DNA from: Ascidia mentula
Lineage: Eukaryota > Chordata > Ascidiacea > Phlebobranchia > Ascidiidae
Reading direction: 5' to 3'
DNA: 64,000 bases
Assembly (NCBI GenBank): GCA_947561715.1
Contig: OX387198.1
Span: forward strand, 2,232,001-2,296,000
Shown: positions 1-57,434 of the stretch, one piece after another
How the letters are laid out: the number at the start of each line of letters is the position of its first letter
How positions within the stretch are numbered: position 1 is the stretch's first letter
Notes under the pieces: model-generated
The model's input: only the letters and a program-made list of their open reading frames with translations
Told to the model about the DNA's origin: nothing
The model's database searches: none
Translations under genes and position numbers: made by a program

Positions 1-3000
1 CAGTTGTTTCCTGAGGACGAGTTGGCTGAGAGTTGGTTGCACTCTCTGGAGTGTTACGAACTTGTTCTGCACAAGAGATATTTATAATACATTTGCCGAC
101 GCACACTGTCTAAACATTTTTAGTAGACTGTTTTGCAGTTGCATGACGATATGCTCTGTTTATTTTTGTCCTTTTATGCAATGTCAATCCTACAAGTATT
201 AAACACGTTACGACAAGTTTACCACATTTTCTAGATTTGTAGAAATAAACATTGAAGAAACACAGCAGCACAATTAAAAGATTGGTGCAAGGATAGTTTA
301 CTGCATAATTGGTGACTTGAATATTAGGAGAAATATTAAACCATGCATCGGAGTAAAATTTTTTTTTTTGGAGAATGTGTTACAAAATAAAAGCTGCATG
401 TCAATTAATAATGCACTTTTTCGAGTTTAGTTTACCCTACTTGACAATCGCATAATTGTTTGTTGAAGTAAACTTTGTCTAGGATTTGATGTTTGTTGTC
501 TTTGTACATCGTCGGCTCCTTCAGTTATATCTAAAAGCATGAATTTCGACAATCTATCATGTTTCTTAATCAGCCCTTGAGTCTCTGTTATAAAACAGAT
601 TAACAAGACGAATACTTGTTGCAAGCTATGGAAGGATAAAACATACTGTGGGTACATTGGCGTTGATTTTATTTTCAGGGTAGGCTAATTAAAATCATTC
701 TACGGTCTAAGTTCTTTGGGATATAAACGTATTTGTATCTGACGCGTCACGCGCAAAAAATATTGGAAAAGCGAATTTGTGTAAAAGCACAAAGCTTGTA
801 ACGATCAAACGATTCATTTGCAGGAACCCAAAAAAAACAAAGCGATGCAACCGAAATATCGCAGGACGCATGACTTCAGTATATGGACTACCGACGGACG
901 TTTCAAAACCAGGATAGGCAACCTAGCCTGGATTTTAAGCAGGTTAGGCAGGCCTTCCCTGTTATAGGAAGCAAAGCCTTGGCCAACCAATCCCAAGGTT
1001 GGGGGTCTTTAAAATAAGTTTAAAGTTTTTATTCCTAAATACAAGATTATCACAGCGATTACTTGGCGTACCCACAGTGAGAGTATGTTTCACTAAAAGC
1101 GTTGAAGCATATTTTAAGACTTTTTTATTACATTCCAAATATGTAACATTCAACTTAGCAAATGAGTGGTAATATGAATCACTAAGGTAGTACTTTAAAT
1201 AAAACAAAAATTCACTGACCTGATATTGTTTGAACATTTCGTAAGTTAATTTCACTTTGTTTAATCCGCTCCTTCCTTATCTCTTCAGTTATGTCTGTTG
1301 CCATTCCCAAAGCTTGAATTGATCTTTCATAAAAATCCACACTTTCATCCAATCGATTTGTTCTCCAGCAAACAAAACCAAGCATGTACAACAAATGTCC
1401 GAACACTTCATGCTTTGCTGAGTTTTCACCAAACTGTTTCCTCATCATTTCAAGTCCAAGTTTGATTGTTGATTCCTGAGATGAAAGATCTTGCAACAAC
1501 TGTTGACTCCATTGAATGTGATACAAACACCAAACTTGACTTAGACATAAAACTTCCTTTTCCACGTTTTCCATGTTTTGTATTTTGAGTCTCATCATTT
1601 CCATTAGATTGATCACGTAGTCCCCAACTATTTGTTTGTTTCTGAATTTTAAAAGTAAATCCGATGATTTTATTAAATCTTCGCATGTCTTTCCCAGACC
1701 ATCCACACAGTCCTTCACACCGTTGGCTGCTTTTCTTCCATCTGGACATTTTTCATACAGTTGCGATGAAAGATAGTAAAATAAAATGGAATGAAAAAAT
1801 TGCTTCTTTTTTCTCATTTCTTCTCCGATTGATTTCAAATCTTTAGGCGTTAACCAAAGACCCTTAATTAACCTTGATAGTTGGTTTCTTGCTTTATTTG
1901 CTGCAGAATATTTTCGTTTGATTAACAAATCTACGTAATTTGCAATCAGTGGCGTCGGGTCAATGTTTTCATCTGAAACAACATTGGTGAAATAAACTCC
2001 CTGGAACAATTAAATACCCATTATCTTTTAAGTGTCTGTTGTTTTGGCAAGATGCCTAGCGAAAGGTCAACCAGATATCATGTGAGTCGTTAAATTAGGT
2101 ACAGCTGCTGGGTTATGAGTTCAAACTTTACCGAAGCCCAGATTTTTAAAAATCTTGCTCTGTCGTCAAGAGAAATGGCTAAAACTGGGTGACTACAACA
2201 CTACGGCTTCAGTGTCTGTGAACCTTGCAGTCGTGCAGCAAGAACAAAACTGTTTAATTGGAAGTGATTTTTTTGAACCCCATGTTGTTTACTACTGTCA
2301 GTGAAACTAAAGGTACAGCAAGCGAATAATGCTAATAAAACATACCCAAATCCTGCAGTGTTCCCTGCATGATGTTCTCTGGGTAATTTGGTTTGTCACT
2401 TGATAGTTGGTTGTGAGTAACATCATAAGAGGTGGTTGTGGGCTCCGCTGTTCTTTGTTCTGCAATACATCACTTATTTTTTTTTTGTCAATATTGCTTG
2501 GAAATTTACACATTAAAATGTTTGCAAACTATTTGGGGATGAAAATTATTGTTGGGCGATCACTTGCAAGCTAGTCAGTTTTAAGATATCCAGAAGCACA
2601 CAAATTATGTCCGCAAACAAACTAAGGTTAGGAGATCAAGCAAATCTATAATTGGGATAAAATGTATAAGTAGTTGCACTGACTTAACGTTGACTGAACA
2701 GTTGCCAAGCAGCTTTTGGTATCTTCAATCCACTTCTTCCTTTCCTCTTCAGTCATGTCTGTTGCCATTCCATAAGCATGAATTGCCCGTTCAAAGCAAA
2801 CCACGCTTTCATTCAGTCGATTTGATTTCCAGTAAGCAAGACCAAGTTTGCGCATCAAACGCCCGAACACTTCATGCTTTGTTGAGTTTTCACCAAACTG
2901 TTTTTTCATCATTTCAAGTCCAAGTTTGACTGTTTTTTTCTCAGACGAAACATCTCCGATTAAATTTTGACATATTTGAATCTTATGCAAGCACCAAACT

Positions 3001-5001
3001 TGGCATAAACACGAAACTTCCTTTTCTACGTTTTTCACATTCTGTATTTTGAGTCTCATCTTTTCCATTAGTGGGATCACGTGATCACGAACAATAAATT
3101 TGTTTCTTACCAATTGTAACAAATCTGATGTTTTCAGCAAATTTGCGCTGAAACATTTCATACCCAGCACGCAATCCCTAACACCCTCCGCTGCTGTTTT
3201 TCCATTGGGATATTTTTCATAAAGTTCCGATGATAAATCGTAAAACAAAATCGATTCCAAACAATCCCCCTCTTCTCTCTTTTCATCTCCAGCTGTTTTC
3301 AAACTTTTTGCAGTTGCCCCACGACCTTCAAGTGACCTTGAAAGTTGGTTTCTTCTTTCATTTGCTTCTAAATATTTTCCCTTATTCAACAAATCAACGT
3401 AATTTACTGCCAGAGACACATCAATATAATCTGAAACAAAAAAGCATTTTATTCTTTACTAAAAATAAGATACGCAAATACAATCTCCTTCAGAAGAACT
3501 AAATGTTGACTCAGGTTTCTCCAACTAACCTGTTTGCTGCAACGTTTCCTGTGTGTTGTTCTCTGCATCATTTGGTTCATCACGTAATGGTTGACTGTCA
3601 GATACATTATGAGAGGTACTTGCAAGGTCTGTGTGGCTCATAATTTGTTCTGCAAAAAAAATCCAAGGGCTACATGTTACACAATGAATACGTATACTTT
3701 TTTGGTAAACTGTTTGCAAACAACATAAGTTTCACATGACAAAAAAGGTTTACACAAATAACCGTTAAGCGGAGCTGCATATTAATCGAATAAATCCACC
3801 AATATGTGGCGAGCGGTTAAACTAAAATGATTTCCTTTGTATAATTATGTTATACTTACTACGAGATGGTCGTGATATGTAAAGTCCATCAACTGGCAAT
3901 TGTGTGTTTTGCACAAGCTTATAAAAGCCTCGCAAATCCTCGCGAAAAATCTGTATCAGTGCAAGAAATTATTTTAGTTTCAGTAAATTCAATAAATATG
4001 TTTGGACAAAGCCTATGCAGGGACGCTCACGTTTGCAAAAAAAGAAAACACTCCGTGTATCTCGACTCCTATGACTATTAAAACATTTGCCACAGACTAC
4101 TTTGCTACCTTTTGAATAGAATAAAACAAACAATATCGCTCATCTTATTACACAACGTGTAACATTCAAATGCGGCGACGAGATCTAAGGTTATATACGT
4201 TTCCTTCTCCCACTTGTCTTAGTCTCTGTACGGTTATTGAAATTTAAAAAAATAGTAACATGGACAGGATCATTATAATGTCGATTTGATTATTAAACCC
4301 AAATCCGATTTTCCACATGTCAAAAATGTACCCATATGTCGGGATGTAATTACAATTTGACACAAAATATAACAAAGTCGGATGCACCTTGAAAACTACA
4401 GCTTTTGTGGCCACATTTTTTTGTTAATAAAAATGCTGTATATTCCAAACTATGTAGCAATTGCCTTTTTCAAACATAAAGTATAAAACCCTGTAACTAC
4501 TGTTAATAACTAAAGTTTATTAAACAAAAGTATATTTGCCTGAAATGATTTTAGTCCTTCTTTAATTGTGGTGGCAACATTTTCCTTGAACTGTCGTTGC
4601 ATATTTTTCCATTCATGTTCACTGACTTTCAGTCCATCTGTGCCTTTAATCTCAATATTGTGGAAATTTCCCACTTGATAATGATTATTGAGTTCATCAA
4701 GTAGGGAATTGATTTCTTTCAATATTTTACCCGAGGTACAACCGCTTGTAATGCGATTGGCAACGCTTTCCTTATCAGCAACAACTGTGACTATGATACT
4801 TCCATTAACATCAACAACCTGTCCACCTCTGCTTTCAAAGGGTTTTAGTATGGCTCGTACATAGTCCTCACTGTTTATTCTTGTCCATGGTAGGTGTGTA
4901 TCAGCTATAATTCCTGACTCTACTGTGGATGTTAACACAACTTCTGCAGCTGGTCCAGTAAGCCAAATATGCAGAAACTTCAAATCAACATTTTCAGCCA
5001 T
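1..5001 (-). CDS. Gene A: TRADD-N-like N-terminal exon followed by linker + TPR-like exon units; 3' end cut by the window edge
   Basis: Exons read from splice sites on the minus strand: 5001-4510 (or spliced earlier, see its own entry), 3950-3860, 3649-3530 (linker), 3430-2684 (TPR-like), 2459-2346 (linker), 1972-1220 (TPR-like), 66-<1 (linker, cut by the window edge). From 3860 on, every exon ends in phase 1 and every linker length is a multiple of three (120, 114). The TPR-like exons are 747 and 753 nt, encoding helical proteins with a final TPR-type hairpin. The whole locus is a tandem copy of gene B about 10.5 kb away. Molecular function is unknown; TPR-like modules are usually protein-protein scaffolds, and its relatives in this window are joined to kinase, ZU5 and MADF parts. 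Whether the 5001 exon belongs to the same transcript is inference. Confidence 0.6.
1220..1972 (-). CDS. TPR-like module exon A2
   Basis: 753-nt exon with acceptor gtttcag|ATGAAAACATTG and donor ATCAG|GTCAGT, in phase 1-1 (251 codons). It carries the same landmarks as the other modules: YVDLL near the start, FYYLSSQLYEKCPDG, MEMMRLKIQN, GLEMMRKQFGENSAKHEVFG, and a C-terminal TPR hairpin containing NRLDESVDFYERSIQA. It differs from copy B2 (12415-11663) at roughly 33 of about 250 residues. Confidence 0.7.
2041..2240 (+). repeat. tRNA-derived SINE copy in an intron of gene A
   Basis: A B-box-like gagttcaaac at about 2116, followed by a body with gatttttaaaaatcttgct and agaaatggctaaaactgg. The same body follows the tRNA-like head at 52559-52487. 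Its A-box half is degenerate. The copy at 12484-12680 came with the segmental duplication. Confidence 0.45.
2684..3430 (-). CDS. TPR-like module exon A1
   Basis: 747-nt exon with acceptor tttgtttcag before 3430 and donor GTCAGT after 2684, in phase 1-1. It encodes about 249 residues. The N-terminal half has the family pattern YVDLLNKGKY...NQLSRSLEG, then FYDLSSELYEKYPNG, MEKMRLKIQN and GLEMMKKQFGENS. It ends in a TPR-like helix pair (VFGRLMRKLGLAYWKSNRLNE...). If the donor is not used, the frame runs to a stop at 2646. The reading frame is intact. Its counterpart in gene B is 13911-13165. Confidence 0.7.
3860..3950 (-). CDS. Short exon of gene A, entering phase 0 and leaving phase 1
   Basis: 91-nt exon, acceptor gatacag before 3950 and donor GTAAGT after 3860. 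It encodes FREDLRGFYKLVQNTQ followed by LPVDGLY and a basic/proline end. The same exon is at 14432-14342 in gene B. It converts the frame to the phase-1 convention used by every following linker and TPR exon. No domain recognised. The open frame on the opposite strand here is a shadow. Confidence 0.5.
4510..5001 (-). CDS. 163-aa protein, possible TRADD-N-like domain; first exon of gene A or a separate small gene
   Basis: ATG at 5001 lies in AAAAATGGCTGAA, and the frame runs to TAG at 4510 with an AATAAA overlapping the last codons. I do not recognise it firmly. The core, beta strand GSIIVTVVA, then a helix, then SGKILKEINSLLDELN, resembles the layout of TRADD-N-like domains seen at the N-termini of many invertebrate immune-type proteins. 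An internal GTCAGT donor at about 4628 (after DGLK, phase 0) would join in frame to the phase-0 exon at 3950, so this may be exon 1 of the TPR gene. The copy at 15529-15026 differs by indels of 9 and 3 nt, both codon-sized, which argues that it is translated. Confidence 0.55.
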   Translation of the reverse strand: MAENVDLKFLHIWLTGPAAEVVLTSTVESGIIADTHLPWTRINSEDYVRAILKPFESRGGQVVDVNGSIIVTVVADKESVANRITSGCTSGKILKEINSLLDELNNHYQVGNFHNIEIKGTDGLKVSEHEWKNMQRQFKENVATTIKEGLKSFQANILLFNKL

Positions 5002-5850: not shown

Positions 5851-6004
5851 AGCAACAACTGTTACTCTTAACATTTCCATTACAAGCATAAACCACGTTT
5901 CTAAAGTTGAAAGGGTTACATTATTACATCAAAATGCTACCTCTTCTCATTGGTATCAAATAAAGCCTTTTTGTCATTCACTTTTGGTTCTGCTTGGTTT
6001 AAAG

Positions 6005-9167: not shown

Positions 9168-9925
9168 TTATCGACGAAGCATTTTTTGAATTCTTCTGAA
9201 ATTTTTTTCACTCCAGTTTATCAACTCATTCCTTCTCTCCTCATCTACGTCTGTTGCCTTTGTGAGAGCTTGGGTTGCTTTTTGAAACAAATCCATGCTA
9301 TCATTCAGTCGATTTGTTTTCTCACAAACAACACCAAGGTAGTGTAACAAACGTCCGAACACTTTATGCTTTGCTGAGTTTTTACCAAACTGTTTCCTCA
9401 TCATTTCAAGTCCAAGTTGGATTCTTGATTCACTCGGCAAATAATCTCCAAGGAACTGTTGACTCACACCAATGTAATATAAACATTTAACTTGATATAA
9501 ACATGAAACTTTCTGTTTGACATTTCCGATATTTTGTATTTTGAGTCTCATCATTTCCATTAGTGGGATCACGTAATTGCGAACAATTTCTGTGTTTCGA
9601 AGTTTTGGAACCAAATCTGATGTTTTGAGCAAATCTTCGCATGTGGAATGCAGACCGCGCACACAATCCTCCACACCTTCTGCTGCCAGGGTTCCCTCAT
9701 GTTTTACATAAAGTTCCGATGCAAGATCGTAAAATAAAATCGATTCCAAACATTTTCCCTCTTCTCTGTTTGCATCTCCAGTTGTTTCCAAATCTGTTGC
9801 AGTTGTCCCAAGACCTTCAACTGACCTTAAAAGTTGGTTTCTTTTTTCATCAGCTTCGGAATATTTATGTATTTTTAACAACTCGACGTAATGTTTCAGG
9901 AGTGCATCCAGGTCAATGTTTTCAT
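9168..9925 (-). CDS. TPR-like module exon B3, terminal exon of gene B
   Basis: 758 nt from acceptor (a)ag|ATGAAAACATTGACC to a TAA after LRR. Same family landmarks: FYDLASELYVKHEG, MEMMRLKIQNIGN, GLEMMRKQFGKNSAKHKVFG, and the TPR hairpin RLNDSMDLFQKATQALTKA. Unlike B1 and B2 it has its own stop and no donor. Its counterpart in gene A would lie left of the window. Confidence 0.7.
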
Positions 9926-12900
9926 CTAAAATACAAATCGATGAAATATATCTGGCAAGATGGATAGCAACAGTGACTTGTTTGTTTTGTACATAGGTGT
10001 ATATGTAGGCGTCTTAGAACGATGGGCAGCCACATTTTAAATTCGAAAAAAATATGTGAAAAGAAAACACACATAAAAATTGTACAAACTATTCTAAACG
10101 CAGCCAACAGTTAAATTACAAAAACAACGAATTATTAGAATGAGGAAAGTTGGGCACAAAACGCTGCAGCGGAAACAAGGAAAATGTGTAAATTGCCAAG
10201 TGTGGGAGGCCGATCTCGGGCCGATAAACCGGCAATTTTATCCTTTGAAATCAATATGATAACTGCTGTGGTTAGGTTTAACGTTATTTAATGACTGCCG
10301 TCAAACGTACGAAAACTGAGATTGCAGCATATTAAAAAGAGAGTGCTTGAGGTAAAATGTTTTCCTGGCCTACGTTTACATACCGGTTTGTTGTAATGTA
10401 CCCTGTAAGTTGTTTTCATCTTCAATTGTCTCGTGAGGACGAGTTGGCTGAGAGTTGGTTGCACTCTCTGCAGTGTTTTGAACTTGTTCTGCACAAGAGA
10501 TATTTATAACATTTTTGCCTACGCACACTGTCCAAACATTTTTAGTGCTCACTTGTGACATCAAATGACGACTGTTTTTCAGTTGCATGACGAGATACTC
10601 TGTTTATTTTTGTCCTTTTATGCAATGTCAATCCTACAAGTATTAATCACGTCACGACAAGTTTACCACATTTTCTGGATTTGTAGAAATAAACATTGAA
10701 GAAACACAGCAGCACAATTATAAGATTGGTGCAAGAATAGTTTACTGCATAATTGGTGACTTGAATATTAGGAGAAATATTAAACCATGCATCGGAGTAA
10801 AATTATTTTTTTTGGAGAATGTGTTCAAAAAAAAAGCTGCATGTCAATTAATATTACACTGTTTCTTGTTTAGTTTACCCTACTTGACATCCTCATAAAT
10901 GTTTGTTGCAGTAAACTTTGCCAGGGATTTGATGTATGTTGTCTTCGTACATCGTCGGCTCCTTCAGTTATATCTAAAAGCATGAATTTCGACAATCTAT
11001 TCTGTTTCTTAAATCAGCCCTTGAGTCTGTGCTATGAAACAGATTAACAAGACGAATACTTGTTGCAAGCTATAGAAGGATAAAACATACTGTGGGTACG
11101 TTGGCGTTGATTTTATTTTTAAGGTAGGCTAATTAAAATCATTCTACGGTCTAAGTTCTTTGGGATATAAACGTATTTGTGTCTGACGCGTCACGCGCAA
11201 AAAATATTGGAAAAGCGAATTTGTGTAAAAGCACAAAGCTTGCAACGATCAAACGATTCATTTGCAGGAACCGAAAAAAAACAAAGCGATGCAATCGAAA
11301 TATCGAAGGACCCATGATTTCAGTATATGGACTACCGACGGACGTTTCAAAACCAGGATAGGCAACCTAGCCTGGATTATTAGCTGGTTAGGCAGGCCTA
11401 CTCTGTTATAGAAATCAAAGCCTTGGCCAACCAATCCCAAGGTTGCGGACTTTAAGATAGGTTTCAAGTTCTTTTTCCCAAATACAAGATTATCAGAGCG
11501 ATTACTTGGCGGACCCACAGTGAGAGTATGTATCACTAAAAGCGTTGAAGCATATTTTAAGACTTTTTTATTACATTCCAAATATGTAACATTCAACTTA
11601 GCAAATGAGTGGTAATATGAATCACTAAGGTAGTAATTTAAATATAACAAAAATTTACTGACCTGACAGTGTTTGAACATTTCGTAAGTTATTTTCACTG
11701 TTTTTAATCCACTCCTTCCTTGTCTCTTCAGTTATGTCTGTTGCCATTCCCAAAGCTTGAATTGATCTTACAGAAAAATCCATACTTTCATTCAGTCGAT
11801 TTGTTCTCCAGCAAACAACACTAAGCATGTACAACAAATGTCCGAACACTTGATGCTTTGCTGAGTTTTCACCAAACTGTTTCCTCATCATTTCAAATCC
11901 AAGTTTGATTGTCGATTCCTGAGATGAAAGATCTTCCAATAACTGTTGACTCCATTGAATGTGACCCAAACACCAAACTTGACTTAGACACAAAACTTTC
12001 TTTTCCACGTTTTCCACGTTTTGTATTTTGAGTCTCATCATTTCCATTAGATTGATCACGTGGTCACGAACTATTTGTTTGTTTCTGAATTTTAAAAGTA
12101 AATCCGATGATTTCAGTAAATCTACGCATGTCTGTTTCAGACCATCCACGCAGTCCTTCAGACCATCGGCTGCTTTTCTGCCATCTGGACATTTTTCATA
12201 CAGTTGCGATGATAAATAGTAAAATAAAATGGAATGAAAAAATTGCTTCTTTTTTCTCATTTCTGCTCCGATTGATTTCAAATCGTTAGGTGTGAACCAA
12301 AGACCCTTAATTAACTTTGATAGTTGGTTTCTTGCTTTATTTGCCGCAGAATATTTTCGTTTGAATAACAAATCTACGTAATTTGCAATCAGTGGCGTTG
12401 GGTCGTTCTTTTTATCTGAAACAACAACAGTCAAATAAACTCCCTGGAACAATTAAATACCCAATATCTTTTAAGTGTCTGTTGTTTTAACAAGATGCCT
12501 AGCGAAAGGTCAACCAGATATTATGTGAGTCGTTAAATTAGGTACAGCTGCTGGGTTATGAGTTCAAACTTTACCGAAGCCCAGATTTTTAAAAATCTTG
12601 CTCTGTCGTCAAGAGAAATGGCTAAAACTGGGTAACTACAACACTACGGCTTCAGTGTCTGTGAACCTTGCAGTCGTGTAGCAAGAACAAAAATGTTTAA
12701 TTCGAAGTGATTTTTTTGAACCCCATGTTGTTACAACTATCAGTAAAACTAAAGGTAAAGCGAGCGAATAATGCTAATAAAACATACCCAAATCCTGCAG
12801 TGTTCCCTGCATTGTGTTCTCTGGGTGGTTTGGTTTGTCACTTGATGGTAGGTTGTGAGTGACATCATAAGAGATTGTTGTAGGCTCCGCTATGCTTTTT

Positions 12901-15529
12901 TCTGCAATACATTGCTTTGTTGTAAACGTTTCCAGGCACAAACTTAAACGGATGTGATTATTTTTTTATTAAATATTGCTTGGAAATTTTTGCGAATATT
13001 TATTGCAAACTATTTGGGGATGAAAATTACTGTTGGGCGATCATTTGCAAGCTGGTAAGTTTTAAGATATCCGGAAGCACACAAATTATGTCCGCAAACA
13101 AACTAAGCTTAGGAGATCAAGCAAATCTATAATTGGGATAAAATGTATAAGTAGTTGCACTGACTTAATGTTGACTGAACTGTTGCCAAGCAGCTTTTGG
13201 TATCTTCAATCCACTTCTTCCTTTCCTCTTCAGTCATGTCTGTTGCCATTTCATAAGCATGAATTGCCCGTTCGAAGCAAACTACGCTTTCATTTAGCCG
13301 ATTTTCCTCCTGGCAAACAAGTCCAAGGTTGCGCATCAAACGCCCAAACACTTCATGCTTTGCTGAGTTTTCACCAAATTGTTTCCTCATCATTTCAAGT
13401 CCAAGTCTGACTGTTTTTTCCTCAGACGAACAAACTCTGATTAAAAATTGACATATTTCAATCTTGTGCAAACACCAAACTTGGCATAAACATGCAACTT
13501 CCTTTTCTACGTTTTTCACGTTCGGTATTTTGAGTCTCATCTTTTCCATTAGTGGGATCACGTGATCGCGAACAATAAATTTGCTTCTTACCAATTGTAA
13601 CAAATCTGATGTTTTAAGCAAATTTTCGCTGGAACATTTCATACCCAGCACGCAATCCCTAACACCCTCCGCTGCTGTTTTTCCATTTGGATATTTTTCA
13701 TAAAGTTCTGATGATAAATCGTAAAACAAAATCGATTCCAAACAACCCCCCTCTTCTCTCTTTACATCTCCAGCTTTTTCTAAATTTTTTGCAGTTGCCC
13801 CACGACCTTCAAGTGACCTTGAAAGTTGGTTTCTTGTTTCATTTGCTTCTAAATATTTTCCCTTATTCAACAAATCAACGTAATTTACTGCCAGAGTAAT
13901 ATCAATATAATCTGAAACAAAAAAAAGCAATTTTATTTTTTACTAAATATGAGATACGCAATTATAATCTCCTTCAGAAGAACTATATGTTGACTGAGGT
14001 TTCTTCAACTAACCTGTTTGCTGCAATGTTTCCTGTATGTTGTTCTCTGCATGATTTGGTTCACGACGTAATGGTTGACTGTCAGATACATTATGAGAGG
14101 TACTTGCAAGGTCTGTATGGCTCATAATTTGTTCTGCAAAAATATCCAAGGGTTACATGTTATACAATGAATACGTATACTTTTTTCTGGACTGTTTGCA
14201 AACAAGATAAGTATCACACAACAGAAAGGGCTTTAACAAATGACCATTAAGTGAAGCTGCATATTATTCGGATAAATCAACCAATATGTGGCGAGCGGTT
14301 AAACTAAAATGATTTCCTTTGCATAATTATGTTATACTTACTATGAGATGGTCGTGGTATGTAAAGTTCATCAACTGGCAATTGTGTGTTTTGCACAAGC
14401 TTATAAAAGCCCCGCAAATCCTCACGAAAAATCTGTATCAATGCAAGAAATTATTTTAGTTTCAGTAAATTCAATAAATATGTTTGGACAAAGCCTATGC
14501 AGGGACGCTCACGTTTGCAAAAAAAGAAAACACTCCGTGTATCTCGACTCCTATGACTATTAAAACATTTGCCACAGACTACTTTGCTACCTTTTAATTA
14601 GAATAAAAACAAACCTTAGATCAGAACATATAAGGTTAAAATGCGGCGACGAGAGCTGTGCTTCAATTGCGTAACGTTTCCTTCTCCACACTTATCTTAG
14701 CCTCTGTCTCAGTCTTCGTTACCGTAGCTTATGCCCATCGATTAAAATACGTTTATTGAAATTAAAAAAGAATAGCAACATGGACAGGATTATTAAAACG
14801 TCGATTTGATTATTAAACCCAAAGCCGATTTTCCATATGCCGGGATGTAATTACAATTTGACAGAAAATATAACAACTAATAGCAACGTCTTATGCACCT
14901 TGAAAACTACAGCTTTTGTAGCCACATGTTTAGTAAATAAAAATGCTTTATGTTCCAAATTATGAAGCATTTTACAAACATATATTTGTACACCAAGTGT
15001 AAAACCCTGTAACTGGTGTTAATAACTAAAGTTTATTAAACAAAGGTATATTTGCCTGAAATGATTTTAGTCCTTCTTTGATTGTGGTGGCAACATTTTC
15101 TTTGAACTGTCGTTGCATATTTTTCCATTCATGTTCACTGACTTCCAGTCCATCTGTGCCTTTGATCTCAATATTGTGGAAATTTCCCACTTGATAATGA
15201 TTATTGAGTTCATCAAGTAAGGAATTGATTTCTTTCAATATTTCACCCGAGGCACAACCGCTTGTAATGCGATTGGCAACGCTTTCCTCATCAGCAACAA
15301 CTGTTACCATGATACTTCCATGTGTAATATTAACAACCTGTCCGCCTCTGCTTTCAAAGGGTTTTAGTATGGCTCGTACATAGTCCTTACTGTTTATTCT
15401 TGTCCATGGTAGGTGTGTATCAGCTATAAGTCCTGACTCAACTGTGGATGTTAACACAACTTCTGCAGCTGGTCCAGTAAGCCGAATATGCAGAAACTTC
15501 AAATCAACATTCAAAACATTTTCTGCCAT
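9168..15529 (-). CDS. Gene B: N-terminal TRADD-N-like exon plus three linker/TPR-like units
   Basis: Exons on the minus strand: 15529-15143 (if the internal GTCAGT donor is used; otherwise open to 15026), 14432-14342, 14133-14014 (linker, 120 nt), 13911-13165 (TPR-like, 747), 12901-12788 (linker, 114), 12415-11663 (TPR-like, 753), 10488-10384 (linker, 105), 9925-9168 (TPR-like, ends in TAA). All junctions from 14342 on are phase 1, and the exons from 14432 sum to exactly 896 codons including the stop. With the N-terminal exon the protein would be about 1024 aa. Three TPR-like modules in tandem suggest a scaffold with repeated binding surfaces. A possible 5' leader exon with ATG and a GTAAGT donor lies near 15784-15756. 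Partner and pathway are unknown. Confidence 0.6.
10384..10488 (-). CDS. Linker exon B3 (phase 1-1)
   Basis: 105 nt, acceptor gcag|AACAAG, donor CCG|GTATG. Hydrophilic Ser/Thr/Gln/Asn-rich peptide ending in the family signature LQQT/G. Its duplicate starts at 66 and runs off the left edge. Confidence 0.55.
11663..12415 (-). CDS. TPR-like module exon B2
   Basis: 753 nt, phase 1-1, donor TGTCAG|GTCAGT. Same landmarks (KCPDGRKAADG, MEMMRLKIQN, MMRKQFGENSAKHQVFG). Intact; duplicate of exon A2, and the source of the hand-made divergence estimate in the findings. Confidence 0.7.
12484..12680 (+). repeat. tRNA-derived SINE copy in an intron of gene B
   Basis: Duplicate of the element at 2041-2240, with the same B-box-like and body sequences. 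Confidence 0.45.
13165..13911 (-). CDS. TPR-like module exon B1
   Basis: 747 nt, phase 1-1. Acceptor tttgtttcag; donor at GTCAGT. Same landmarks as the other modules (ELYEKYPNG, GLEMMRKQFGENSAKHEVFG, NRLNESVVCFERAIHAY). Intact frame; duplicate of exon A1. Confidence 0.7.
14342..14432 (-). CDS. Short phase 0-to-1 exon of gene B
   Basis: 91-nt exon with acceptor and donor identical in position to the copy at 3950-3860. It encodes FREDLRGFYKLVQNTQ, LPVDELYIPRPS. No domain recognised. Confidence 0.5.
15026..15529 (-). CDS. 167-aa protein, possible TRADD-N-like domain (copy B)
   Basis: ATG at 15529, stop at 15026. It is a near copy of the 5001-4510 frame. Compared with copy A it has three extra residues after MAENV and one extra before the GSI(M/I)VTVVA strand, both codon-sized indels. 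Amino-acid changes are scattered (D/N, K/E, T/A). An internal phase-0 GTCAGT donor at about 15142 is conserved, so it could be either exon 1 of gene B or a stand-alone gene whose 3' end overlaps a poly(A) signal (AATAAA in the last codons). Confidence 0.55.
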   Translation of the reverse strand: MAENVLNVDLKFLHIRLTGPAAEVVLTSTVESGLIADTHLPWTRINSKDYVRAILKPFESRGGQVVNITHGSIMVTVVADEESVANRITSGCASGEILKEINSLLDELNNHYQVGNFHNIEIKGTDGLEVSEHEWKNMQRQFKENVATTIKEGLKSFQANIPLFNKL

Positions 15530-36180: not shown

Positions 36181-39100
36181 ATGGATTTTGGCGAGGTCCT
36201 TATACGAATGGTTCGCAAAGCACCGTGTTTATACGATTCTGCAAACAAGGATTATAAAAACTCAGAAAAGAAAGAAAAAGTTTGGAAACTAATCAGCAAA
36301 AAAACTGACCAACCAGGTGAATCTTGGTTTATATCACTGATGATAACATGATATGTGATTGGAGGAATAATTATAACTAATTCGTGTTTTCAGTGAATAT
36401 GTGCAAAGACAGATGGAAAAGTTTGCGTGATCGCTTTTTAAAAGTAAAAAAAAGTTTGGACAGCCTTGAAAAGAGCAGTAAAACTAGTGCACGACAATGG
36501 GTGTATTATAAGGATCTTCAATTCTTGAAGCACCATTTAAGAAACAAACTGTAAGTAGAGCTGTAAATTGTTTTTGTATTTTCATTTCAATACTTTGTTT
36601 GCAGAGTTGTGACCGATTTGGACGTCACGGATTTGGATATGACTGAGTTGTCAGAAACAGGTACCTGCAGCACATTGGTCATTTTTTTGCAGCAATTATA
36701 TTGGTGAAAGGGAAATCTATGTGTCTTGTTGATTTGTAGAATCGGAAGCAAACAAAGCATTAGAGAAAGAGAGAATGTTGTCTGCCATTGACTTGCCACC
36801 TCCTTGCAAAAAGCGTAAGGCTGAATGTCAGGTAAATAAACACTCATAAGAATGTTATAAAAGAATAATATATAAACAGCAATTGCCTATCTTCGTTTTA
36901 GGAAAAAACACAAACCACAACAACACCAACTCATGCACAAGCTGAATGTGAAGATGAGTTTTTAACTTTTGGAAACTTAGTGGCATGTAAGCTCAGATGT
37001 ATGCCCAAGAAAAATGCTGACAAGATAATGCCCAAAATACTTGACTGTTTTGTGGAACATGCTGTGGACAAAGTGCCAGGTATGTGAAGTTCAGTAAACA
37101 AAACTTACAGCCTTCTCTTTGTTTGTAAACCCAATATTGGCTTTTCTACATTTATAAATCTATTATCCACTAACATTGTATATAACCCAAGAGAATATCA
37201 AGTAAAAGACAAAAACATACTGCAATATTCTTTCACATCAGATAAAATTTTCTGTACCTGCCTGGCACACAATCTTTTTCCACTCAAAATCTGAACATTT
37301 ATATCTCCAGTTATTTTCCTTACCTATGCATTTGACCACAGTTGGTTGTTTTTGAAAATAAAGCATTAAATCAAGCAATACCAGTAACATATCTTCTCAT
37401 GGCCATATACTCTTGCATTTGAGTGCCAACATAGATCCTACAATTAAACTTTATGGACACATTGTGTGGTGGCCACTTTGGGTAATTGGTAACCTGACAT
37501 GCACAACAGCAATTGTGATTAACATCAAGCAACATTTTTTTTGTATTGTAAGTGTTTACAATGCATACAAAACATTTTCCCAGCCAATCCAATGACAGTT
37601 AGTTATTGTTACATATCTTTCTTGCTTTGCAAATACAGATGATACCTCAGTGAATGGTTTCCATAACCCTGTGAACAATAATGGTGGAACTTGTTTTCCT
37701 ACACATCAAAGTGTCTTACCACCACAAACAGGTATTTTAAATAGATGAAAGTAAGTGTTATGGATTACTTTGAATGAAACGTTTATGAAATGTTTGACAT
37801 TTTCATTGGGTTAGTAATTGTAAACAGGTTGAAATGTTTGATACTGGCATGCATCTTGGATTAGTTGTAGCATGAACGTTTTTTTTTTTAATTTTAGTAA
37901 GTGCTGGAAATAACAACAACATTCTACAAAATCAAGGCATTGTTCCAAACCACGTCACACGGCAACCCCAGTACACTACACCAAGTTTTCCTATACAAAC
38001 AGGTATTTTAACGATTGGTGTGTTTCTTTCCATTCTGTGTTTACTGACCTGCTTTATCAATCATCAAGTCTCTCACCGATCCATATGTAAATTTACTTTG
38101 GACGTCTTGCAACAAACTAAGTTTTACATTTCTTTAAATAAACAATGGGTGGAATGCAGCAGACAATTACTTTTCTTTTTTGCATTCTCTAGCCCCTTAA
38201 AACCATTGTGTGGACCCCTTGGTGGTCCACGGACGCCGAGTATGGAACCACTAGTTTAAAATTTATCTACTAATCTGAAACTTTTTTTTTTTGTTTTAAC
38301 TTCGGTAGAATAAGAGTATTACAAAATATTAATTTTATTCAAATCAAATTTAGGACTTACTTTAATTAATGGTGGAGGTCCTACTTATTTTGAAGTTCCT
38401 CTTTACCAAAACCATGCAGCACAACAAAACACAAATTCATCAGCTCCACCACAGCAAAGAGGTAGAACTGAAGAAATTTGCATCCTCTCCATATATTATC
38501 TACTTCTTGTACATAGATTTTCCTTTCTTGAATGATGGGAGTTCCTATAATACTGTCCCCAGTTACCCACCAAGGAATGATTCCATAGTATTCACCAATC
38601 CAACACAACAATCTCTATATACCCCAGAAATTTTACAAACAGGTATAGATTCTACTAAGAATCAAAGTAAAAGTCATGTGGAAATGCAAGAAAGACACAA
38701 GACACATATGGGCATGCAAAAGTTTTTAATTCAGCAAAAGTGTATATTTTTATTTCTTTTTTTCTGTCATTGCAATTTGTCACACAAAACTTTGTACCAA
38801 TCTTGTCTACTGTAAATATTGTAGTGCCAGATTGTATTAAAATGCTGTCAGTCACAGGTTTTGTTAAACATTGCCTTTCTCTCATGTTTATTCATGTCAT
38901 GCCATCATCAGTCAACCGTAGAAAATTTGCCTCACAGTTTTATATAAAGCCAGGCTGTAAACTCTTGTAGTGTGGAGAGTATCAACATATAAAGAAGTTC
39001 AATCCCTGGTGGTCATCTTTTATTTTTATCATGATTTGATTTTTCTTTATCATGAGTAATATTGATTATGTTTCCAAATATAGAATTCACTGCAAATCAT

Positions 39101-41330
39101 GTTCAAATTCCTAATAACCCGAAAACCAGTGATATTTCTGCGAGGCAGTCAGATGCTGCAAAAGGGTTAATGCGACTTTCAGGTAAGTTTTTTTTGTAAA
39201 CAAACACTTAAAACTAATTAGTAAATTTGAGTTAAAATTTAACCTTGTTTTGTAAAAGTTTTTTTGCACATGATTCTCCATTTTTTTATCTTTCCTTTTT
39301 TTAAACTTTGTAAGGTCCTGTATACATTTCCAAGTGTGTTTGGGGATAGTATTACCACTACGCCACATACATTCCAATTTCCTTGATGCTAACATGAAAA
39401 ACATATTTTTGTAAAAGCTGTTCAAGGTTCTGAAGAACGATCAGCCTCTTCGAATAGCCCAAGGTTCACTGAACTATTAAATAGTCAAGATGTACATGCT
39501 GAAAATATTATCCAGGGAGCAATGCAACAAACAGGTTGATTCATTGTTTATTGCAAGCCCCTTAGTCACATAATGCAAAAGTAGTTGTAAATTATAAAAG
39601 AACATCCAAGGGTGAAGTTTAGATTTTTTTTGTTTAATCACTTTCAAGGCACTGAACAGCATCCAACCACCTCTTATGATGTAACCCGTGATCAGTTTTC
39701 AAGTGATGAACAGATAAATGCAGGAAAAGTCGTGAAGGGACAACAACAAACAGGTAACGCTATGTGTGTAAAAATTTTTTACTGAAAACAATTTGAATAA
39801 ACTGTATCTGCTGTTGGTATGCTACTGATAGTGGTAAACATTGCATTACAGTAAAGCAATTACTTTCCTAAGGTTTTAAGTTAAATTTATGTAAGACAAG
39901 ACATTGGCAATCACGTTTAAGAAGAAGCCTTTTTCCTTGCCAAGCCTTTTTCTTTTTATAGCCAAATCTTTAAAATTCAGTCACTCCAAAACCCCCAGGA
40001 ACAGATTGCTAGCACCTCTATTTAAAAGCTATTGGTGACGAAACCAGAATAAATTGTTAAAATGTAGGAATACCATTTAACAGAAGTGTAAGCAATGTAA
40101 ACTGCTTCAAAAGGAGCTGTTGATGATACATTAAATACAACTATTAAAAATTAAATACCATTGTATTTAAATATATCTGTTTAAACCAATGAGCAAGAAA
40201 CAAAAATCTTTCCAAAAACTTTCGGGGAAAAATTTAGGACTTTCAAATATCACAAAACATACATAAGTTTCACATTTGTTGTTTCATGACATAACAAATA
40301 ACGGCATTGACGTGTATATTCTGTGATTTTTTATTAAGCCTAATCAAAATTCCTTTTCTGGTAAATCGTAAAACATAAAAGATACGAAATCTTAAATTTC
40401 TTTTTCCATTATGTCCCCTTTTTAAAAAAATACACGTTTACCACTCTTTAGCGCCACCAAAAAAATTCCCCCGAAACACTGACACTTTGAATAGACCGCC
40501 AGGGTATGTGATGGCGGGAGGTTGGGTTTATTTATGTTTAAATTAAATAAATTGTTTTTATTTCAGATGAAAACATCGATTCAACTTTTTTGATCCAAAC
40601 TTACGTGAATTTGTTGGAAAAACATAAATATTTTGAAGCAAATGAAACAAGAAACCAACTTTCAAGGTTGCTTGAAGGTCGTGGGAAAACTGCCGAAGAT
40701 TTGGAAATAACTGGAGATAAAAAGAGATGGGAGGAAAAATATTTGGAATCGATTTTATTTTACGATGTTGCGTCTGAACTTTATGTCAAACGTGATGGAG
40801 ATGAAGCGGTGGAACGTGTGAGGGATTGTGTTGAAGGTTTGAGATGGACATGCGAAGGTTTGATGGAAACATTGGATTCGAATCAAAAACTTGAAAACAA
40901 ACGAATAATTCGTGGTCATGTGATCCCACTGATGGAAACGATGAGACTCAAAATACAAAATATTAAAAACGTGGAAGAAGATATTAAATGTGAGGAGCAA
41001 GTGTTGTGTTTGCACTACATTGAACGGAGTCAAGGTTTAATCGGAGATTATTGGTCGAGTGAATCAACAATTCGACTTGGACTTGAAATGATGAGGAAAC
41101 AGTTTGGTGAAAACTCAGCAAAGCATGTAGTGTTCGGAATTTTGTTAAACAACCTTGGTGTTGTTTGCATGGAAACAAATCGACTGAATGAAAGTGTGGG
41201 TTTTTGTCAAAAAGCAATCCAAGCTTTCAGATTGGCAACAGACATGAGTGAAGAGGGAAGGGAGGTGTGGATTGAAGAAAGTGAAAACAATTTAAGTGAA
41301 GTTGAATCAAAACTTGCACAAAGGAAATAA
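36181..41330 (+). CDS. MADF/BESS - linker array - TPR-like protein (711 aa, 13 exons)
   Basis: Exons: 36181-36316, 36394-36550, 36605-36660, 36740-36831, 36902-37079, 37639-37731, 37898-38002, 38354-38461, 38517-38642, 39084-39182, 39418-39534, 39649-39753, 40567-41330. The sum is 2136 nt with all phases consistent. Residues 1-97: MADF domain (LIRMVRKAPCLYD, VWKLI, CKDRWKSLRDRF, WVYYKDLQFL). A CKKRK nuclear-localisation-like patch follows. 166-195: BESS-like helix (FGNLVACKL..MPKK...IMPKIL). 207-457: seven Ser/Thr/Gln/Asn-rich phase 1-1 linkers (93-126 nt, all multiples of three). 458-711: TPR-like module. MADF-BESS proteins are DNA-binding regulators in animals; a TPR-like tail on one is unfamiliar. 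The linker array would tolerate exon skipping. Confidence 0.8.
40567..41330 (+). CDS. TPR-like module exon, terminal exon of the MADF gene
   Basis: 764 nt from tttcag|ATGAAAACATCG to TAA at 41330. Landmarks: YVNLLEKHKYFEANETRNQL, FYDVASELYVKRDG, METMRLKIQNIKN, GLEMMRKQFGENSAKHVVFG, NRLNESVGFCQKAIQAF. Its second half and 3' flank are duplicated at 47556-48960. Confidence 0.8.
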
Positions 41331-47554: not shown

Positions 47555-47555
47555 T

Positions 47556-48131
47556 ATATTTGGAATCGATTTTATTTTTTCGATGTTGCGTCTGAACTTT
47601 ATGTCAAACGTGATGGAGATGAAGCTGTGGAAGGTGTGGAGGATTGTGTTTGGAGTTTGAGTCTGACATGTGGAGATTTGATGAAAACATCGGATTGGAA
47701 TCAAAAACTTGAAAACAAACGAATAATTCGTGATCATGTGATCCCACTCATGGAAACGATGAGACTCAAAATACAAAATATTCAAAACGTGGAAGAAGAT
47801 ATCAGATGTGAGAATCAAGTGTGGTGTTTGCACAGGATTGAATGGAGTCAACATTCAATCGGAGATTATTCGTCGAGGGAATCAACAATTAAACTTGGAC
47901 TTGAAATGATGAGGAAACAGTTTGGTGAAAACTCAGCAAAGCATGAAGTGTTCGGATATTTGTTAAACAACCTTGGTGTTGTTTGCATGGAAACAAATCG
48001 ACTGAATGAAAGCGTGGATTTTTGTAAAAGAGCAATCCAAGCTTAAGAGTGAAGAGAGTAGGGAGGAGTCGATTGAAAAAAGTGAAAACAATTTAAGTGT
48101 TGTTGAATCAAAACTTGCACAAAGGAAATAA
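47556..48131 (+). pseudogene. Truncated TPR-like exon abutting the transposon
   Basis: Matches 40738-41330 from atatttggaatcg to the TAA, but everything 5' of that point is replaced by the transposon's right end. Compared with the intact exon it lost about 20 bp near 48045, which shifts the frame after AIQA. No acceptor remains, so it is a relic. Confidence 0.8.
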
Positions 48132-48960
48132 TTATGACATCACAAACACAAAATGTGTTTTTGTTAAATATGTTTGAATTATGCATTGTTTATGTAATTT
48201 GTATTAAAATGGAAGTTAGCTACCATGCACTTGAATGAATTTTGTGATTATTATTTTCATGTCGCTAGTGATTTGTGGCTGATAATAAAGTAAATAAGTG
48301 ATGTTGGCTTTAAGATTAAGCTTTGGTAAATTCAATGCAAGGTTTTAGGTAAAAATGCAGAATATTATATTTCAGCTTGAAGAGAAACCAACTTTAGCCA
48401 AAGAAAATTAGTATCCTGGTAAGAGTTTGCTTTTATCTTCAATGAAAGTGCGTACCACCATAAAAAATAACTATTCAAGTATGAAAAACTTGCCAATATA
48501 TTGGGTAATTCTGTTTGATAAATACGTCATTCGAATGTGCCATAGTTTTTAAGTAGCTTATTTCACATTACTAGCTTTTAGCACATGCATTTGGTGCACC
48601 CAATAATAGGTATTATAAAAAAAAAACTTTAAACAGTGCTAAAAACTGTGCAAAGTAATACAATGGCTAACCTCCTGCAAAGGACCAAATGTGGCACATT
48701 ATGTCTTTGTATCTGGCCTGCTAGGAGTTTGTACAAATGAGACACTTTACAAACAATGTTTATACTGCAGTTTGATGTAATTTTTGTACACGTCACTTAC
48801 CTAGGCCACATTTTAAAGCATTTTTGTAAATAGGTTATAGTTTACCTCTAATTGTCCGCTTTTTAATGGTTACAAAAGCTGCATGCTAAATTTTTGTTTA
48901 TTTCTCGTCTGGTAATAGAGGAGAGTGCCTAACACTGCCAGGACAGATAAACGACAAAAT
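47556..48960 (+). repeat. Direct duplication, right copy (left copy 40735-42180)
   Basis: Exon half plus about 830 bp of 3' flank, collinear with the left copy. 48960-50082 has no recognisable feature. Confidence 0.8.
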
Positions 48961-50082
48961 AAACCTTACCCACCATTCCACATGGACAAGACAAAAACTT
49001 TTCTGTATGCTAAAAACTTATTTTGCGACTGAATTTAATGAAAACAAAAATCATGGGATTATTTTGAAGCAAAAGTTTGAAAAACCGAAGGGAAATCCAA
49101 TTTGGCAGGGTTCATTAGGTCTTTAAAAAACTGCATTGATGCCAACTATGGCTGTTTTGTTGGAAGGCCTTGTGCTTATTTGCATACACCAAACTCAGTT
49201 AGGTTATGTACAGATTTAGGTCAGCCATGGAAAAGTTGAACTGTTTGTCTAAAATTGTAATCAAAGTGCATTTCTGCAAATCCACGGTTCCACAAGTGAT
49301 CCAAGATGTACAAGAATATAACGAGCATAAATACACAAATTATTCATTTCACTTTTTTGTTGATTCTTTAGGAACCATTTCCTTTCATTGGACATAAGTT
49401 AAAAAAATACAATCTATTGCCAACATAGTTCATTAATTTTAAAAACATTTTTTTCAGGTTTCTTATTTTTTACACTAAATCATACTTTTATCAAGTTTTA
49501 ATTAATAAACATGAAAATGAATATGACAGATACACACCCAACATATTTCAACATTTCTGTACACATTTGTGCAAAAAAATCAATGCTGATAAAATGAAGG
49601 TGTTTATGTAAATGTTAAATTAACATTAAACATTATTTGTACATTGGAAAAAATTGCTGTTAAAAAATGGTATTTCAAAGTTAGTGACATATGACAGGAA
49701 AATTGTGATTCATGAATAAACCAGCATCACAATATTCCCTGCTCCACTTAAACACAAGCATTGGTCGATACAACTCCATGCATCGAGTTTGGACCAACCT
49801 CTACCTAATGTTTATTTTTCTTTAAGTTAAGCTGCAAAAAGCCAGGACTATTCACTACTCATATACATTGGAATATATGTCTACACAAAATCAAAGAGTA
49901 TGTACAAATAAAATTGCACAGTTTTGTCAGATGAGAAAGGTCTCTATTATTGCAGAAATTGCAGAAAGATGTAATCCATGGATATTGATGAAATTAACAC
50001 TGTATGTCAGGGTGTTGAAGCCACATACTGTTACCATTGTGTACAATTGTATATGAACTGAGCAAGTCAAAGGTGAAGAGTG

Positions 50083-54029: not shown

Positions 54030-57000
54030 ATGTCTTCTGTGGAAGAGGTATGTGGAGTTTTAAATTCTAATCGTAGTAGTATTTTCCATAAAATTTACTA
54101 TGCGCCCTTTTCGAAATGTTACCAGGTTAGCCTACCCCACATATCCTCATGTTTTTGATCTGCAATATTGGTAATAGTAACCATCTGTTTATATATGTTT
54201 TGTAGTTTCATTTAATCAAAGCTGAAGATATTTTATGTGACCAATGGAATTTTGTTGCTGGACAAGGTGGATTCAGTGACGTAATAATTGGTTACCATGT
54301 TGGTTTGAAGCAATTTGTTGCGGTCAAAGTAATTAAAGTTGTTGGTCGTCACAGTGAAGAACTCTTCAAAAAAACGTAAATCCAGCATTCATGATACACT
54401 ACTGTAACTGTTTTTTTTTACAATGATATATTGTTGCAGAATTGGTGAAGAGCTGGAAAACCTGCAAAAACTAAATCATATCAACATAGTGAGTGTTTAT
54501 GGTTGGACCAAATGGCCATTTGCCTTAGGGATTGTCATGGAGTTCTGTAAAGGAAGGAGCCTTTTGGAACTGTTGCTGAATACCTCGATCAGTTTGGGAT
54601 TTCCCTTGCGTGTCCGGTTTTTACTGGATGCTGCAGAAGGTCTAAAAGCTTGTCACGGTTTACCTCTGAAGAGAATGATTCACGGAGATGTCAAGCCTGA
54701 AAATGGGTTGCTTACCAAAATTCTGCGCCTCAAATTGTGTGACTTTGGAAATGCGGAACTCGCAACCATAACTGGATCGACGACAAAGAATCCTTCAGCA
54801 AGAAGCAAGAAGGAAAGACCTCAATACACACCGATGTACACAGCACCTGAAAAAATTGAAAAACCTACAATGAAACCAACAAAAGAACTTGATGTTTATG
54901 CTTTCGGTGTGATGATCTTTACTGTTGTGGTTAGGGCATTGCCATACTCCACCGACAACCAGAAAGCTTTACTAGACTCTATTAAGGAAGGGACTAGACC
55001 AAACTGTTTAGTAATAGAAGAAGAAAAGCAAACTCTTAATGAAAGCGACAGAGCAATCGTTGAAAACCTGGAGCAACTAATGAAGCAGTGTTGGGATCAA
55101 GATCCATCTAAACGACCAACGATGATCAAAATCTGTGAGAAATTGCAGCAACTTCTCGACCAGCAAAGCCCAGTAGTGATCGAGCAACAAGTGGAAGATG
55201 TTGTCAGGCAGAAGAACATGAAAGATCCCTTTCTTGTCAAAGATGAGAAGTTGGTTTCCCTTCAATGGTTTTGCACAAGAACCCGAAGATTCCAAGGTTT
55301 GTTCTCAAAATTATACCAACCAGAAAAAATGTCGAATCATTAACTGTATTAACTATCACTTTCACTGATATGTGGTCCTTTCTTTGCACAGTACCTGACA
55401 ATCCTTCGCCCTCTAATGATGCCAAGAAAGATCATTCATCCACTGACAAGAAACCAGTTTCAGGTGATTCTGTTCAAAGCCCATCATCTTCTAGATTGGC
55501 ATCAGAAGTTAATCGAGATTGTTATTTAAAACCTAATGTCAGACAGAAAAATATATTTTTGCAAGGTACTGGCTTGACTGATTGCGCCATAGTTTTTTTT
55601 ACTTTTGCTGTTGAAAAATAGAAACTATAACAATTACTTCAATACATTGTGTCCTTCTCTGGTCAAGAAATTTGCAGCACCAAATGAAGTTAGATTAGGC
55701 TCACAAAAGCTCATGCAAATAAAGTGTTTAGAAGCCACTTTTTCAAAAACAATGCAACAGCAATTACTAAAACTATAACAAGTTCTTCTTAAATGCATAA
55801 AAATGTGTGAATAGGAGTATATTCAACTAATACTTGTTAGAAATGATATTTGTGGTGTATGATGTTGTTTGTAGCAACCGTGTATAGAACTCATTGTAGA
55901 CAAATTAGATGTAGCACTGTGGTAAATACAGATGCCATAGCTCAGGGGTCGGCTACCTTTTAAATGCTGTGGTCAGTTTACAAATTATGTTTAAATTTTG
56001 ATGACTTCATGTGCCAACCTATATGTGTACACAAAAGTATGTTGGCCTTTTTTTAACCATTCTCTGCATAGTAACTGATCATATGGGAATATATGAAGGC
56101 AGCACACAAGCATGGACATTGGAGTAATGAACTTGTAAAGCACTCACAGTACTATCAAAAATCATCTCAAATTTGTTATGGATACCACATATTGTTGACT
56201 CTGCCATACATTACTTGTGCAATGTAAAATTTTAAGAATGTTTGCAATTTTTGCTTTTGACAATTTCACTATGAATTGATCACATTTGTATTTGTCTGCA
56301 CTTATCACAAAAAAAACTAAATCCCTCAAACATTTAGTCCCTGTGTTTTCATCACAGAGACCAATCCAAACTCTGATGCGGGAAACCGATCTCCTGCACT
56401 TGGTGATGTCACCCTAACTCATTCATCCACAGATCAAGTGGTTTTTGGACAAGCAGGTAATGTTACAAGCTGGTGTATGCAGAGATTATGTGCCTATATT
56501 GCGCAAACATAAATACTGATCACTTGAGTAAAAGCCCGTCTTCACTTTAAAGTGCTGATCCTAAATTTTTTTATAGCAGGTCAAGAATTATCCAATGTGA
56601 GGTCACAGCATTATGACTTGAATGGTGAAGAAATAGTGGAGCAACAGCCAGGTATATTCAAAGATGTTGTATGGTTTAGGATAGTTTACTAAAAACAAAA
56701 ATCACTCAACATAACATTAAGTGCCTTACACATGACAACAATGAATATACCAATAAACAACAATTAGGTATTTAAAAATACTGTTAAGTTTGCAAGTTTG
56801 CTTTACATCTTTTTAATGTTATTATAATATCAAAAGCTCATTGTAAGGCTTTGTGCAATTTATATTTCCATAAAAAACTGTATGACCTCTCAGCTGTTTC
56901 ACTGCTGAAAATCGAGTCATTATATTACCATGTAAATTCGTCTCTAAAAAATATTCATCGCCATAAATAAATATTAGTATTACATTTTGTAACAGATGAC

Positions 57001-57434
57001 TGTTTTCTCGTTTGGTAAAGTTAGAAACCACGATCTAGTTTGATTTAACTGCTCTATACAAAATTATTACCCATTACAAAACCTAGTTAATACATTTGCT
57101 CTGTTTCCCATCCTGGTTAATTCTCCATTTCTTCATTGTCTATCTATTGACAAAAAGTATTCACGCCAGGGTTTATTTGTTGCAGTTTTAGCAAACAGTT
57201 TAAAACCACCTGGAACATTTGACTTTCATGTTTGTATTAAAATAATAGTTGACATTAGCAATCCATTCTCATTCAGCTTTGAAAAGAAAATCAAGCAATG
57301 ACGTTCCAAGCGCTTCCAGTGACAGCAAGAAAATTAAAAAAAGTACTGAAGATGGAACATCACGAAAGGAAGAAGCAGGTGAAAAAATAAAACTTACGAC
57401 CTCCGTCATATATATTTTGATATTGTTAATGTAG
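54030..57434 (+). CDS. Second RIPK-like kinase with linker exons, no TPR exon
   Basis: Exons: 54030-54047, 54206-54375, 54440-55296, 55392-55462 (or to 55565), 56358-56456, 56580-56651, 57277-57378 or read through to a stop at 57434. The first two exons (18 + 170 nt) equal the 188-nt first exon of the 24.9-kb kinase. Kinase features: GQGGFS loop (third Gly is Ser30), VAVK lysine 47, HGD 144-146, DFG 164-166, APE, and CWDQDPSKRPTM in the C-lobe. Linkers are phase 1-1 and Ser/Asn/Asp-rich; the last is basic (KRKSS...KKIKK). The expected TPR-like and ZU5 exons are missing. The upstream frame 53828-54028 stops just before this ATG and is probably 5' leader. Confidence 0.7.

Follow-up and report, generated by a model that had tools for sequence, protein, structure and literature searches.

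NLR/STAND receptors join a conserved signalling part to a variable repeat domain and are encoded in tandem arrays. IFIT proteins are TPR proteins that occur in expanded families under positive selection and, to our knowledge, carry no fused signalling heads, and the kinase RIPK1 possesses a C-terminal Death domain. As described in the main text of PMC8195603, from which the words "tunicate" and "Ciona" are absent, TRADD-N has undergone lineage-specific expansions in metazoans, in which death and immune domains were recombined with kinase, UPA-ZU5 and TPR partners.

Here, we describe a 64-kb window (the whole stretch of DNA analysed, C2:2,232,001-2,296,000 on chromosome 2 of Ascidia mentula) together with its relatives in the 195.8 Mb (79 contigs) of genome searched. 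In this genome, COX1 on contig C79 carries AGA/AGG codons at positions where glycine is expected, in keeping with the mitochondrial code of ascidians, and polyA RNA-seq for the species is listed in PMC11109543 (ERR10378036). Judged from the sequence, a TPR tail is combined in this genome with three or more N-terminal heads that are unrelated to one another, namely a RIPK1-like kinase, MADF and a TRADD-N-like head, and the tails are very similar across head types and the heads conserved, which suggests a so far undescribed family of recognition proteins with swapped heads and, in one array, a fast-changing TPR module. Similar to the TRADD-N expansions, it is a large lineage-specific expansion in which signalling domains have variable partners. 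Unlike them, as far as they are presented in PMC8195603, where TRADD-N and a death-like domain are the constant part, the TPR tail is constant in A. mentula and the heads vary.

The A. mentula kinase domain is nearest to RIPK1 among solved structures (all 13 PDB sequences at E<=1e-20 were RIPK1, a ranking by sequence similarity), whereas the predicted 954-aa kinase-TPR-ZU5 protein has no Pfam Death domain match at E<=0.1 and carries TPR and ZU5 instead. In contrast to NLR/STAND receptors, no NTPase domain match was obtained, and neither NACHT nor NB-ARC was found by Pfam in the parts scanned, which were the whole kinase model (954 aa), residues 1-273 of the MADF model and, for gene B, its head and its TPR exons. 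The only comparison with IFIT proteins, a search of the TPR-module profile against PDB, returned no IFIT chain at E<=1. No description of a TPR-tail family with such heads was found among the best matches in the open-licence literature, and 122 pattern matches in viral contigs included no relatives.

The TPR exon and its three architectures

The window holds seven intact copies of a TPR exon of about 250 residues and one relic (Table 1), and the copies are 45-58% identical to the copy at 22013. A phase-1 AG/NN acceptor precedes all seven intact copies and was also present at 30 of 30 loci examined (L029 among them being the window's own copy) and at 33 of 34 additional loci (L118 again being the window's own, and L092 not being located by the anchor). 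The core of the original prediction, the recurrence of a phase-1 TPR-like exon in the window, is borne out far above chance. Linker and TPR exons upstream of the ZU5 part have phase 1 at both ends, with the exception of the terminal TPR exons.

The exon was predicted to fold into an 11-helix TPR superhelix (pLDDT 95.5) with the tandem helix-turn-helix arrangement by which TPR domains are recognised. The best 50 Foldseek matches in PDB were mainly TPR domains, with E values of about 1e-4 to 2e-3, and also included 14-3-3 proteins. Among them, the TPR domains of LGN/Pins, KLC and NASP have the same superhelix fold as the Ascidia model, but at 10-18% identity and TMq 0.23-0.63, which is a likeness of fold and no family membership. 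The curated Pfam TPR cut-off of 27.8 bits was not reached by any of five copies scanned (best 22.3) nor by two further copies, and the TPR alignment, used as a profile against PDB, produced three matches at E<=1, of which the best had E 0.081 and not one was meaningful.

Table 1. Features of the window and of related loci (positions 1 to 64,000 of the window unless a locus is named)
Feature	Position	Strand	Basis
Gene A TPR exon 2, phase 1-1	1220..1972	-	Identity to 22013 copy, splice model
Gene A linker exon 2, phase 1-1	2346..2459	-	Splice model; homologous to MADF linker 39649-39753
Gene A TPR exon 1, phase 1-1	2684..3430	-	Identity, splice model
Gene A linker exon 1, phase 1-1	3530..3649	-	Splice model
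Gene A connecting exon, phase 0 in/1 out	3860..3950	-	Splice model; similar exon by eye in L064
Gene A TRADD-N-like head exon, GC donor, phase 0	4540..5001	-	Homology, splice model
Gene B TPR exon 3, terminal with stop	9168..9925	-	Identity, splice model
Gene B linker exon 3	10384..10488	-	Splice model
Gene B TPR exon 2	11663..12415	-	Identity, splice model
Gene B linker exon 2	12788..12901	-	Splice model
Gene B TPR exon 1	13165..13911	-	Identity, splice model
Gene B linker exon 1	14014..14133	-	Splice model
Gene B connecting exon, phase 0 to 1	14342..14432	-	Splice model
Gene B TRADD-N-like head exon, GC donor	15056..15529	-	Homology, splice model
Head-exon GC donor	15056, 4540; L009-L018, L020, L021		Conserved CAG/GCAAAT
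Kinase gene, 7 C-terminal exons: linker, ZU5, region proposed as UPA	20235..21823	-	Splice model, Pfam
Kinase gene TPR exon, phase 1-1	22018..22770	-	Identity, splice model
Kinase gene, two phase-1 linker exons (23293-23379, 23006-23044)	23006..23379	-	Splice model
Kinase gene main kinase exon, RIPK1-like	23609..24462	-	Pfam, PDB search, splice model
Kinase gene exon 1, glycine loop and VAVK by eye	24750..24937	-	Splice model
MADF gene exons 1-5 (MADF in exons 1-2)	36181..37079	+	Splice model, Pfam
MADF gene, seven phase 1-1 linker exons	37639..39753	+	Splice model
MADF gene terminal TPR exon	40567..41330	+	Identity, splice model, structure model
Relic: 5'-truncated copy of 40739-42188, early stop	47556..48997	+	Alignment
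Second RIPK-like kinase, two kinase exons, without TPR exon	54206..55296	+	Search, splice reading
TPR-less kinase gene, remainder; alignment to TPR-bearing kinase gene stops at 57513	55297..57513	+	Alignment

Instead of the at least five gene contexts originally proposed, the window contains three architectures, one of which occurs twice in tandem, as gene A and gene B. Gene A extends past the window edge, and gene B is predicted to encode an open 1053-aa protein composed of the head, a connecting exon and three linker-TPR pairs. The first intron of gene B starts with GC, and the stop codon of the head ORF falls within the intron, after a phase-0 donor CAG/GCAAAT which is conserved in 12 of 13 close head copies (L019 ends before the site). 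In distant head paralogues, a GT donor candidate was seen by eye at the same place in all seven examined, four further matches lying outside these seven, and, also by eye, the head at C2:15.85 Mb is followed by an exon that resembles the connecting exon and has a phase-0 acceptor. The head was also considered as a separate intronless gene, which was rejected once the GC donor and an exon with a matching phase-0 acceptor had been recognised. A hydrophobic Ala/Gly-rich stretch near the N-terminus of four distant paralogues (L022, L023, L025 and L028) perhaps mediates membrane association.

The joining of this head to TPR exons is predicted by the open model of gene B, and its identity as TRADD-N is only suggested. 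Pfam TRADD-like_N (PF20694) matched two of seven head-family members weakly (best E 0.0094) and did not match the member in the window, ALS_ss_C scored better in one member (E 0.00052), a genome search with PF20694 gave one match outside all head loci, and the best PDB match of the head-family profile had E 0.21.

The kinase gene is predicted to encode an open 954-aa protein with every intron GT-AG, in which ZU5 scores 31.4 bits (cut-off 21, E 2.4e-7), and the UPA domain proposed to follow it had no Pfam match at E<=0.1 anywhere in the model. Likewise, the predicted MADF gene consists of MADF, seven linkers and TPR (711 aa, open, introns all GT-AG), with MADF at 80.5 bits against a cut-off of 22, and no BESS match at E<=0.1 was obtained in residues 1-273, a stretch that includes the region proposed for this motif. 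The second linker of gene A (A2) resembles a linker of the MADF gene (M12) with z = 10.1 and none of 300 shuffles as high, and the kinase gene linker K1 gave no match of this kind. The A2-M12 homology points to a larger block that head-type and MADF genes would have in common. The relic predicted at 47.6 kb was recovered as a copy with 90.8% identity to its source. Overall, confirmation of what had been noticed in the window is partial, as neither UPA nor BESS was recovered and the splicing is predicted from sequence.

A chimeric junction and copies across the genome

The genome carries at least 171 copies of the TPR exon, a lower bound from the union of searches that includes partial copies, with 150 of 280-301 candidates scored per TPR-exon query and 141 of 338 in the kinase search; partial matches were left out of sequence comparisons. 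For 131 of the 171 TPR exons, the 15 kb upstream contain a head on the same strand, and for two a head on the opposite strand, compared with a mean of 4.6 and a maximum of 66 same-strand heads in 200 circular shifts. The nearest upstream head is a kinase in 73 cases, TRADD-N-like in 36, MADF in 20, and head plus kinase in four, and the same-strand order of head then TPR is regular across many clusters.

Kinase- and MADF-headed genes are interspersed in an array at 2.27-3.05 Mb. The kinase-TPR gene L065 and the MADF-TPR gene L066, the sole complete pair of these types compared over full length, have a tail of about 6 kb in common with 91.6-92.6% identity. The 1.5 kb 5' of the TPR exon is 94-96% identical across head types in some pairs, and others align partly. 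At position 3437-3450 of L065, a junction was located, where the match to the window's TPR-less kinase gene ends (3450) and the match to the MADF gene starts (3437), and the 3' flank of the kinase gene thereby abuts the sequence immediately before the linker exon of the MADF gene. A 221-base probe across this junction gave 37 matches in the genome: eight spanning, four with the kinase half only, and 25 with the MADF half only, five of the last being second copies inside TPR-bearing kinase genes. By coordinates, among the matches listed, the eight spanning matches correspond to the array's eight TPR-bearing kinase genes (one with a partial TPR match), and the four kinase-half matches to its four TPR-less kinase genes, including the one at 54 kb of the window.

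The kinase gene at 54 kb, which was originally said to have lost its TPR exon, is probably unfused instead, because the TPR-less kinase genes hold only the kinase half of the probe; the proposed loss was dropped and the direction of change is probably the reverse. The simplest reading of the junction pattern is a single fusion that was duplicated afterwards. In a tree of 34 tails, kinase and MADF copies are intermixed. AU tests did not reject kinase tails or MADF tails as a single clade (p 0.074 and 0.064), and therefore repeated swapping is not proven by the tree, whereas the junction indicates one fusion; later gene conversion of tails is possible. Exon shuffling within one cluster, as first proposed, is supported for the array by the one junction mapped, with the difference that the unit moved in this event is, on the alignment, a multi-kb tail of phase-1 linker exons, TPR exon and 3' flank rather than one exon.

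The same pattern might be produced by a lineage-specific expansion, in which an ancestral multidomain gene (e.g., head-kinase-TPR) was duplicated and its domains were differentially lost, with the similarity of tails due to gene conversion, which would also yield tails of about 92% identity. Such an ancestor may survive at C2:15.85 Mb, where a head, a kinase and four TPR exons stand in order, and kinase-TPR pairs are present in many clusters; MADF, however, has no relative among the parts of such an ancestor. Moreover, the array contains the two junction halves both separately and combined, and in its kinase genes the distinction coincides exactly with the absence or presence of a TPR exon, which is simplest as a fusion event. 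We regard the expansion as less probable. Read as a fusion, the array unites parental genes of both types with their chimera and its junction, and the mechanism of exon shuffling is directly open to study there.

Substitution and variable sites in the TPR exons

In 22 TPR exons of the array, from which L048 with its internal stop was left out, dN was 0.110 and dS 0.067 (dN/dS 1.64, CI 1.25-2.33), with dN above dS in 228 of 231 pairs, and a tree-based count gave a ratio of 1.69 (p = 3.4e-8), neither measure taking account of recombination among copies. Per-codon selection tests on these exons were mostly not significant. Codon positions 1, 2 and 3 differ by 0.114, 0.111 and 0.060, the near flanks by 0.073 (280 nt 5') and 0.064 (300 nt 3'), and a more distal 3' stretch by a larger 0.178. 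For the heads, dN/dS was 0.30 for the kinase (n=7, out of the array's eight TPR-bearing kinase genes), 0.30 for MADF (n=13) and 0.22 for the TRADD-N-like head (n=10).

Outside the array, dN/dS was 1.09 (n=10) or 1.17 (n=14) in the kinase-TPR set at C2 1.0-1.4 Mb and 0.88 (n=14) in the C69 array, with CIs that include 1 and no overall excess of dN in the latter, and 0.58 (n=10, CI below 1) in the third TPR of head-type genes; one 14-copy set omits L054, and L087, L088, L090, L092 and L119 entered in shortened form and contributed fewer codons. Among the sets compared, a significant excess of dN over dS is seen in the 2.27-3.05 Mb array, and it is not general.

Among the 21 most variable sites of the array exons, which combined distinguish all 22 copies, 20 are located on A helices (Fisher p = 1.1e-5, with A and B helices labelled from helix order and the Pfam TPR match), and the third-TPR set of head-type genes had no such contrast (p 0.32). 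In TPR domains, the concave groove is lined with A helices, which would place these sites on the face predicted to bind partners. Site variability also has helical periodicity (p = 0.001) and correlates among four sets (rho 0.20-0.47, L092 omitted).

The reading we prefer, and hold to be moderately probable from these sequence patterns, is a family of intracellular recognition proteins that are diversified in the germline and have outputs that can be exchanged. Phase-compatible introns would allow a recombinant to be spliced in frame, the TPR groove would bind a changing ligand, such as a pathogen molecule, a self/non-self marker or a fast-evolving partner, and the head would convert binding into an output, which may be kinase or cell-death type signalling, or perhaps transcriptional in the case of MADF. 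An immune or self/non-self role would be a candidate by analogy. More tentatively, and with a probability short of even, this would be a chordate system of germline-encoded recognition whose ligand-binding part is a hypervariable TPR groove in place of LRR, Ig or WD40 repeats, and into which recombination in tandem arrays plugs kinase, death-adaptor-like or DNA-binding outputs, possibly in immunity or allorecognition. The original prediction of a family of signalling adaptors is plausible but understated, as heads under purifying selection and a tail with dN above dS in the array look more recognition-like; taken as a whole, that interpretation was partly supported. Tunicates are the sister group of vertebrates, and if the recognition reading is true, they own a large TPR-based receptor repertoire.

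Instead of a receptor, the TPR domain could be a scaffold whose variation follows co-evolving endogenous partners, e.g., other members of the array. TPR grooves such as that of LGN bind endogenous partners and the closest folds are such complexes, and we give this account a small share of the probability, no larger than that of the expansion. Relaxed constraint or biased gene conversion, with high dN as a sign of lost function, is improbable, for although one of the 23 array copies examined has a premature stop (L048), and the relic and further partial array copies (2365880, 2793029 and 2865786) exist, the exon is open in the other 22, dN is above dS and above both near flanks, and the changes gather on one set of helices.

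Further loci and neighbouring sequences

In the window, an integrase core domain (rva_4, PF24764; 39.9 bits against a cut-off of 26) was found at 46320-46700 (-), near the TPR relic. Overlapping long ORFs at 43413-45175 (+) are HECT-like by eye, with no such Pfam match in the three scanned, and a 329-aa ORF at 33456-34445 (+) with several hydrophobic stretches is receptor-like by eye, with no Pfam match at E<=0.1.

No recognised head lies upstream of 38 of the 171 TPR copies, many of which are paired (C2:0.18-0.32, 13.76-13.87 and 2.04-2.08 Mb; C71; C52; C69), and these possibly belong to further head types. In the 24 kb upstream inspected for four such groups (L060-L063), no head was recognised in the ORFs of L060, L061 and L062 (Pfam was run on eight L060 ORFs and one L062 ORF). 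L063 contains C2H2 zinc-finger ORFs at 3116-4284 (C2:2.039-2.041 Mb, +), two of three above Pfam cut-offs, which are situated 2-3.5 kb 5' of the TPR exons at C2:2.043 Mb on the same strand and may represent either a fourth head or a separate gene.

As well, C69:19.28-19.62 Mb carries a second dense kinase-TPR array with more than 25 TPR matches, some of them partial. Finally, at C2:15849400-15854700 (L064), a head exon, a RIPK1-like kinase and TPR exons follow in order on one strand, an arrangement that is possibly a triple fusion, and a second head-kinase pair is present at C2:15.918-15.921 Mb.
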